From: Phaeodactylum tricornutum CCAP 1055/1
Taxonomy: Eukaryota; Bacillariophyta; Bacillariophyceae; Surirellales; Neidiaceae
NCBI RefSeq assembly: GCF_000150955.2
Contig: NC_011682.1
Span: forward strand, 351,521 to 415,520
Length of the DNA stretch: 64,000 bases
Direction: 5' to 3'
Below the pieces are notes generated by a model. It was not told the DNA's origin, searched no databases, and saw only the letters and a list, made by a program, of their open reading frames with translations. A program made the translations under genes and the position numbers. Positions within the stretch are counted from its first letter, which is position 1. Each line of letters starts with the position of its first letter. This document shows positions 3,811 through 54,460 of the stretch, in pieces.

Positions 3811-4015
3811 TATTGAAGAACACAAAACGACGATGAAGATCGAAGTCAGGAAAACGATGAACTACGAAGATTATGAGTCTACATTGTACTCTTGGATATT
3901 CGTAGGGACTGTGGGGCTGTGATTCGTTGTGTGTGGGACGGAAGCGACTTGGCGTTTAGCAGTAGGCGATTGAACTTCTGGTGAGACGTTGTCCTTACTA
4001 GGAGTTGGATCAACA
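3811..4015 (-). repeat. 3' LTR of retrotransposon 1
   Basis: A 205-bp direct repeat identical to 8881-9085. In element sense it runs from 4015 to 3811. The first 145 bases encode the last part of Pol, whose TAA stop is at 3873-3871. The 11-mer CTTCGTAGTTC follows at 3869-3859. A short purine-rich stretch (GCGAGGG) precedes the LTR near 4019-4025 and may be the polypurine tract. Confidence 0.95.
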
Positions 4016-8869: not shown

Positions 8870-8880
8870 CTTCGTAGTTC
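8870..8880 (-). other. Candidate primer-binding site of retrotransposon 1, self-complementary
   Basis: Immediately inside the 5' LTR, in element sense, the sequence is GAACTACGAAG followed by CAACC. It does not begin with TGG, as a site for a tRNA 3' end would. It is perfectly complementary to CTTCGTAGTTC within the same LTR (8939-8929), with 48 bases between the two. The same arrangement is present in element 2. Confidence 0.6.
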
Positions 8881-9085
8881 TATTGAAGAACACAAAACGA
8901 CGATGAAGATCGAAGTCAGGAAAACGATGAACTACGAAGATTATGAGTCTACATTGTACTCTTGGATATTCGTAGGGACTGTGGGGCTGTGATTCGTTGT
9001 GTGTGGGACGGAAGCGACTTGGCGTTTAGCAGTAGGCGATTGAACTTCTGGTGAGACGTTGTCCTTACTAGGAGTTGGATCAACA
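8881..9085 (-). repeat. 5' LTR of retrotransposon 1
   Basis: Direct repeat identical to 3811-4015. In element sense a TATA-like AATATC lies about 31 bases before CTTCGTAGTTC (8939-8929), which makes 8939 a plausible transcript start and the following 59 bases R plus U5. Confidence 0.95.
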
Positions 9086-49183: not shown

Positions 49184-49389
49184 TATTGAAGAACACAAAA
49201 CGACGATGAAGATCACAGTTGAGGAAAACGATGAACTACGAAGATTATGAGTCTACATTGTACTCTTGGATATTCGTAGGGACTGTGGGGCTGTGATTCG
49301 TTGTGTGTGGGACGGAAGCGACTTGGCGTTTAGCAGTAGGCGATTGAACTTCTGGTGAGACGTTGTCCTTACTAGGAGTTGGATCAACA
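49184..49389 (-). repeat. 3' LTR of retrotransposon 2
   Basis: A 206-bp direct repeat that appears identical to 54255-54460. Its U3 encodes the last codons of Pol. Confidence 0.95.
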
Positions 49390-53120: not shown

Positions 53121-54179
53121 CTATTCAGGGGGCTTGGGAGCGGTCCAAACCTTGGTGGATCCGCCGAGAGTGTTGGTGGCGGTCGCGTCGTCGCGATGGC
53201 CAGGGGCCTTGTTCTTGCACGTGGCGCTCGTATGGCGTCGGTTCTTGCTGGTCCCATGGGTCCAGCAATAGGTCATATCCGGAGAGGAGACGGAAGTCTG
53301 TGACACAGAGAGCGCGGAGAAGGGAAGGCTGAGGGTGTCGGAAACCGTGGCTGGAGTCAGAGAGGGGGTTGCAGCGAGAACGTTGGCATAGCCGAGGGAA
53401 CCAGTGGTGGCCGTAAGGCGCCGGTCGTCGTCGGCAAGGGAAAAGTGCTGCTGAAAGTTGGCAAGGGTGTGAGAAGCAAGGGGTAATTTGCGCCATTCTT
53501 TGCAGTCGAGGAGGAGCAGGCCAGAGTGCGCGATGACTTCATAGCCGGCTCGTACGGCGGCAGCTTCGGAGATGGGGTCGTTACCGTCGACGGAGAAGGC
53601 GATGGCCTCGTCGAGCTGGAGAAAAACGGATTCAATCGGTTCTGTTGTATTCCACGGGGTGAACATTGACTGGAAATTTTTCTGGAGCTCAGCGGGCTTG
53701 ATTGTACCGTATTTGGTCCAGAGGTGCGAAAGCAAGTCAAGGCACGTGACGTTGCTGAACTCGAACATGGGATGCGCGAGGGCGCGTACGTAGATGCGGG
53801 GAATCGCATCGAGAAGCTGTTGGCGGAGAGCGTTGTTAACAGCGACATAAAGGTTGTAAATGTCAGCGTCGCGTTGGTGAACGCGGTTATTCTCGGTGAT
53901 TTGGGGTTGCGTGGCGCCGGGGGGCGGATTGGCAGGGGGAGCGACGGGAATGACGAACGGGACGTCGCTGATGTCGGCGTACGCGAGAGCGGTGAGGGTT
54001 AAGGCCATGTGGCCGTGGGCGCCGCCACCGTTGAGCGTGGGGATGGCGGCTGCGTTGGTCATGAGCTGACGTTGGGCATGTTTGATGGTCGCGTAAGTCG
54101 GTGGGACGGTGAGGGTGGCAATCGGATCCAGGACTTTGTGAGGAAAGTCGCTCAGTTTGAAGTGAGCAGAGGTCGACAT
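53121..54179 (-). CDS. Retrotransposon 2 Gag
   Basis: 352 residues from ATG 54179 to the TAG at 53121, the same length as Gag 1. It has the knuckle-like YCWTHG...HTSATC...APGHRDD cluster near the end. The open frame upstream to 54287 passes through LTR and primer-site sequence and is ignored. The TAG is in frame with pol. Confidence 0.85.
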   Translation of the reverse strand: MSTSAHFKLSDFPHKVLDPIATLTVPPTYATIKHAQRQLMTNAAAIPTLNGGGAHGHMALTLTALAYADISDVPFVIPVAPPANPPPGATQPQITENNRVHQRDADIYNLYVAVNNALRQQLLDAIPRIYVRALAHPMFEFSNVTCLDLLSHLWTKYGTIKPAELQKNFQSMFTPWNTTEPIESVFLQLDEAIAFSVDGNDPISEAAAVRAGYEVIAHSGLLLLDCKEWRKLPLASHTLANFQQHFSLADDDRRLTATTGSLGYANVLAATPSLTPATVSDTLSLPFSALSVSQTSVSSPDMTYCWTHGTSKNRRHTSATCKNKAPGHRDDATATNTLGGSTKVWTAPKPPE

Positions 54180-54254
54180 CGGGACCGAAGAGATGGCGGA
54201 TGGGCGGTAGGGCAGGGCTGGGAGCGTAAAGACGGTGGGGTTGCTTCGTAGTTC
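54044..54254 (-). other. Leader of retrotransposon 2 with self-complementary primer site
   Basis: The first 11 bases inside the 5' LTR in element sense (54254-54244) read GAACTACGAAG and are followed by CAACC; they pair perfectly with CTTCGTAGTTC in the LTR (54314-54304), 49 bases away. The rest, to the gag ATG at 54179, is the short leader; bases below 54179 are already coding. Confidence 0.55.
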
Positions 54255-54460
54255 TATTGAAGAACACAAAACGACGATGAAGATCACAGTTGAGGAAAAC
54301 GATGAACTACGAAGATTATGAGTCTACATTGTACTCTTGGATATTCGTAGGGACTGTGGGGCTGTGATTCGTTGTGTGTGGGACGGAAGCGACTTGGCGT
54401 TTAGCAGTAGGCGATTGAACTTCTGGTGAGACGTTGTCCTTACTAGGAGTTGGATCAACA
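54255..54460 (-). repeat. 5' LTR of retrotransposon 2
   Basis: A 206-bp direct repeat of 49184-49389. A TATA-like AATATC lies about 31 bases before the 11-mer CTTCGTAGTTC (54314-54304). Confidence 0.95.

Follow-up and report, generated by a model that had tools for sequence, protein, structure and literature searches.

Element 1, a retrotransposon in the window (the whole 64,000-nucleotide stretch of Phaeodactylum tricornutum DNA analysed here), quite probably belongs to a diatom lineage of Ty1/copia elements in which reverse transcription is self-primed in the manner of Tf1. We regard this as the best explanation because a motif of the LTR is complementary to the site that immediately follows the 5' LTR, because site and motif differ together in a sister family, and because no tRNA of the set examined matches the site. 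The transcript would start at position 8939, or one or two bases away from it, and its first 11 nt (CUUCGUAGUUC) would fold back across a 48-nt loop onto the site inside the 5' LTR. As in Tf1, the element's reverse transcriptase would cut past the 11-nt piece with its RNase H, and the 3' end of this piece would then prime minus-strand DNA into U5. Self-priming has been demonstrated for Tf1, which belongs to the Ty3 order; there a motif of the LTR, placed exactly at the 5' end of the mRNA, pairs with the primer site, RNase H cuts between nt 11 and 12, and the resulting piece is used as primer. Details of this process are given in PMC7175516.

All the features of element 1 lie on the minus strand. 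Its two LTRs, of 205 bp each, are identical (5' LTR at 9085-8881, 3' LTR at 4015-3811) and have the target duplication CAAAA on either flank; with these bounds the putative primer binding site starts at the first internal base (8880). The site, GAACTACGAAG in element sense (8880-8870), is the perfect 11-nt complement of CTTCGTAGTTC at 8939-8929 in the 5' LTR, just where the preliminary description had located the pair, and a further copy of the motif is found in the 3' LTR (3869-3859). An LTR complement of about 11 nt to a site just inside the 5' LTR is the Tf1 type of arrangement, and the motif at 8939-8929 would mark the start of R. Between the LTRs lie gag, of 352 codons with an in-frame TAG at its end (8805-7747, TAG at 7749-7747), and the pol frame (7746-3871), an open frame of 1291 aa that is in frame with gag and ends at a TAA (3873-3871).

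Element 2 of the same window, also on the minus strand, presents the same pair of motif and site. Its 206-bp 5' LTR (54255-54460) is identical to the 3' LTR (49184-49389), with AGGAC as target duplication; CTTCGTAGTTC is located at 54304-54314 in the 5' LTR and at 49243-49233 in the 3' LTR, and the putative primer binding site GAACTACGAAG at 54244-54254. CoDi elements have been described from this same species (Maumus 2009, PMC2806351), and element 2 contains an exact match to the published primer PtC34-Rev at 54121, in the internal region outside the LTR. According to that paper, PtC34 insertions differ among accessions, and therefore the window family has probably been mobile recently. The Surcouf and Blackbeard primers found no match among the sequences compared.

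To assess chance, we shuffled LTRs with their dinucleotide composition kept and counted complements at least as long as the observed one that start at the first inside base. Shuffled LTRs of the window family reached at least 11 nt in 46 of 100,000 cases (about 1 in 2,200), and shuffled LTRs of the sister family described below reached the length observed there in 2 of 100,000. The complement could have arisen by chance in one ancestor and then been inherited, and both the first of these frequencies and the fact that most of the compared rows are close copies leave some room for this reading. However, the sister family has a different complement, of 12-13 nt, in the same place, so that an origin by chance is already disfavoured and we consider it highly improbable.

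The sister family was recovered in a search of the assembly (27.45 Mb, 88 contigs) with the pol C-terminus, in which 102 of 150 candidates were scored, and it shows 63-66% identity to the window family over that region. Its 5' junctions join CATCAATA to GAACTAATAAGAA, and its LTR carries TTCTTATTAGTTC (or ATCTTATTAGTTC) where the window family has its motif. Compared with the window family, the site GAACTAATAAG and the matching LTR motif CTTATTAGTTC have two adjacent base pairs altered on both arms. The perfect complement extends over 13 nt in L108 and L122 and over 12 nt in L110, longer than in Tf1. When LTRs were exchanged between the two families, the complement fell from 11-13 nt with the own LTR to 6 nt with that of the other family, whereas an exchange between the two sister subtypes kept it at 12-13 nt; the L110-type site pairs over 13 nt with the L108-type LTR, as against 12 nt with its own.

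The preliminary description had asked for a comparison of LTR and primer site across copies, and the paired change in the sister family is what this comparison yielded. Among 33 distinct 5' junctions of both families, 26 are perfect over 11 nt, three have one mismatch, three have two and one has three; L130 and L132 are among these seven imperfect rows. The pattern used to choose the rows fixes six bases at the start of the site, so the conservation of those six is not independent evidence; copies identical over 200 nt were counted once. Eight extra loci came from gag matches: five of them fit (L128, L129, L131, L133 and L135), L130 has lost the motif, any match there having at least 3 mismatches in 11, L134 shows no visible junction, and L132 contains an inverted U5. 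In L007 there is one change in each arm, but these fall at different pairs and pairing is thus not restored. The locus L132 (C4:927680-928030) is a rearranged copy in which U5 is inverted between the repeat arms formed by primer and site, a pol fragment replaces U3, and the motif derives from the inverted U5. We considered this inversion as a fossil of self-primed cDNA and dropped the idea; it carries no weight, because such an inversion could equally well arise by rearrangement between the inverted-repeat arms.

In an alignment of 27 distinct rows (A2), 95.9% of the cells pair; shifting the partner by 1-3 columns lowers this to 20.7-45.9%. Five rows have A-U and U-A at pairs 4 and 5 in place of C-G and G-C, and a third two-sided change stems from the degenerate L130. 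None of 500 shuffles matched the observed paired percentage or the covariation score, 18 of 500 matched the count of pairs changed on both sides, and 43 of 500 the further pair types. Since the two double changes lie side by side and divide just the two families, they may represent a single event. Run on the alignment with no structure supplied, RNAalifold predicted the 11-pair stem and nothing else. Folded by itself, the element 1 leader gave a modest z of -2.0 (7 of 200 shuffles as good), and that of L108 a z of -3.2, clearly better than its shuffles.

Because this stem is the main predicted leader structure in both families, the pairing of LTR and site could be a structural element (a U5-leader stem, or one acting in packaging or translation control) while another RNA primes. 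Stems beside the primer site are known in retroviruses and in Tf1; titles in the reference list of PMC7175516 mention them. Against this, the pairing occupies the site from its first base, where any other primer would have to sit; no tRNA that we examined fits the site; and the LTR arm is near the point at which U3 ceases to be coding. We therefore judge a purely structural role to be unlikely, and self-priming of the Tf1 type remains our preferred reading.

As regards the coding part of U3, the pol frame of element 1 crosses the polypurine tract (KRGCVD) and continues into U3, and its TAA (3873-3871) lies one base before the motif (3869). The frame also continues in L107 and L109 of the sister family, where it ends at a TAG within the motif. 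The C-terminus of pol is in this way encoded by the U3 of the LTR in both families (3871-4015 in the window; L107 and L109). Coding that extends nearly as far as the motif fits a transcript start at that place. The preliminary description had, in addition, pointed to a TATA-like AATATC; it is present in element 1 at 8970-8965, 31 bases upstream of 8939, but was not seen at that spacing in the sister-family sequences.

The tRNA complement of the genome was then considered as a source of primers. A search with the Rfam tRNA model gave 51 places, 48 of which were read (three were omitted as apparent twins by score), and ARAGORN made 47 tRNA calls on them, one of them dubious. The set is incomplete, since no Cys tRNA is among the calls and organelle tRNAs are perhaps absent. 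Among these 47 calls, the longest complement to the 20 bases inside the LTR measured 7 nt with Watson-Crick pairs, and the best one over a 43-nt stretch with G-U pairs allowed measured 9, two of them G-U. The rival complement of more than 11 nt that the preliminary description had proposed to look for was thus not found among them; in this set, in which some isoacceptors are missing, no tRNA shows a complement of note to the element 1 site, and no internal tRNA stretch of the half-tRNA kind does so either. A half-tRNA reading based on the resemblance of CTTCGTAG to a Thr-CGU anticodon loop was rejected, the genome's tRNA-Thr(CGT) having just TTCGTA in common with it.

It is in F6, an unrelated copia family of the same genome, that a half-tRNA match appears: its site TAACAGTCTTG (L116, 601-611) is the exact 11-nt complement of nt 27-37 of tRNA-Asn(GTT), with the LTR end placed by LTR alignment alone. 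Judging from this site match, F6 may use half-tRNA priming, and the tRNA test is therefore able to detect primers of this kind. The F6 match, the isoacceptors missing from the set and the half-tRNA priming known in Ty1/copia (PMC6317226) all leave room for element 1 to be primed by a half-tRNA or some small RNA outside the examined set. Such a primer would nevertheless leave the joint change of LTR motif and site unexplained, and the rest of the assembly offers few sources for it. The genome contains 27 occurrences of the 12-mer GCTTCGTAGTTC: 25 are putative primer sites adjoining an LTR match, and two are in stretches with no LTR match and no tRNA nearby; save for these two stretches, the assembly contains no exact 12-nt complement from the first base of the site outside the elements of this putative self-priming type. 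A search of the assembly with LTR and leader, in which 40 of 86 candidates were scored, gave at least 40 matches. We consider an external small RNA quite improbable as the primer, less probable than a structural role of the stem. The proposal of self-priming made in the preliminary description is in this way strengthened by the paired change and by the lack of a longer complement among the examined tRNAs and tRNA halves, with the transcript start as its inferred part.

Concerning the class of the element, gag and pol form one frame separated by a single TAG, and gag measures 351 or 352 aa with the TAG at its end in 16 of 21 rows. A strong stem-loop (7742-7658, z -6.9) begins 4 nt past the gag TAG. 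In an alignment of 17 distinct copies chosen by their stop context (A3), 2 of its 31 consensus pairs are changed on both sides and some pairs are broken in a few copies; TAG and stem-loop together are a probable signal for stop-codon readthrough. The profile matches point to the copia order: an RVT_2-type reverse transcriptase (E 0.004-0.005) follows an integrase-side SH3 (E 0.02-0.03), as is the arrangement of Ty1/copia, both matches being weak in the elements themselves and below the cut-off. The sole matches up to E 10 were RVT_2, SH3_retrovirus and a Ty5-type gag, with no chromodomain and no Ty3-type reverse transcriptase; the rve search gave zero matches genome-wide and is silent on the class either way. 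Among 7,998 scored proteins, 2,170 relatives were found at E <= 0.001. Of the best 120, most originate from JGI or ENA, many are on contigs roughly as long as an element, many bear PF07727, and one comes from Fragilaria crotonensis. No DNA relative was found in scans of the collections of viral contigs and genome contigs. By these sequence matches element 1 looks Ty1/copia rather than Ty3, and its divergent reverse transcriptase suggests CoDiII (CoDi5) as its putative lineage. The label "Tf1-like" given at first thus suits the mechanism and not the class.

Tf1 and Tf2, of the Tf1/sushi group (Ty3/gypsy chromoviruses), present an 11-nt complement between LTR motif and site and no tRNA match, as element 1 does; in contrast to that group, the gag and pol of element 1 match the Ty1/copia type, all weakly, and its transcript start is inferred. 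The initial suggestion that this mode of priming would be new for the order, made on the view that known Ty1/copia elements rely on tRNAs or their fragments, does not hold, because self-priming had already been predicted for the plant Ty1/copia lineage TAR, with earlier proposals for Houba and Osr-1 cited (Neumann et al. 2019, PMC6317226). TAR shares with element 1 the Ty1/copia order and a self-priming predicted from sequence, but it is a plant lineage and element 1 is of the diatom type; the two are set side by side here by description. The main text of Maumus 2009 (PMC2806351) does not contain the terms "tRNA", "priming" or "primer binding", and no report of self-priming in diatom CoDi elements stood among the titles listed in a literature search that covered main texts and few subscription journals. 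The diatom element would be a further case of self-priming, in a lineage for which we found no earlier report.

Branch 1 of Ty1/copia includes GalEa together with the CoDi elements, and GalEa has a non-tRNA primer site, which in fungal GalEa is a palindromic Conserved Hairpin Site (PMC5445492). Unlike the site of element 1, this palindromic site has no LTR complement; it resembles instead F4 and F5 of the present genome. For the first 20 bases of F4 and F5, neither their own LTR nor the examined tRNAs contain a Watson-Crick complement as long as 7 nt, and in both a perfect 12-nt palindrome adjoins the LTR: CGCTTGCAAGCG (in three copies TGCTTGCAAGCA) and GTTTGATCAAAC, located at 708-719 of L112 and, on the minus strand, just inside the LTR of L114. 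Of nine further copies (L136-L144), eight retain the palindrome. The two-sided change in the three F4 copies is weak evidence because it falls at a CpG.

Tentatively, and with somewhat more doubt than confidence, we propose that one diatom genome holds at least three modes of Ty1/copia priming: fold-back of the transcript 5' end in the window family and its sister, a half-tRNA-Asn in F6, and in F4 and F5 a palindrome by which one RNA of a dimer could be primed on the other, the fold-back pair evolving in concert across marine diatoms. If this is true, motif and site would stay matched in the fold-back lineage because the primer is copied into each new site. Self-priming was predicted before for one plant Ty1/copia lineage (PMC6317226), and the paired changes found here, in a diatom lineage that has many protein relatives (2,170), suggest more than one origin of tRNA-free priming. 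The diatom lineage would supply a natural series of primer and site pairs for testing how primers are switched.
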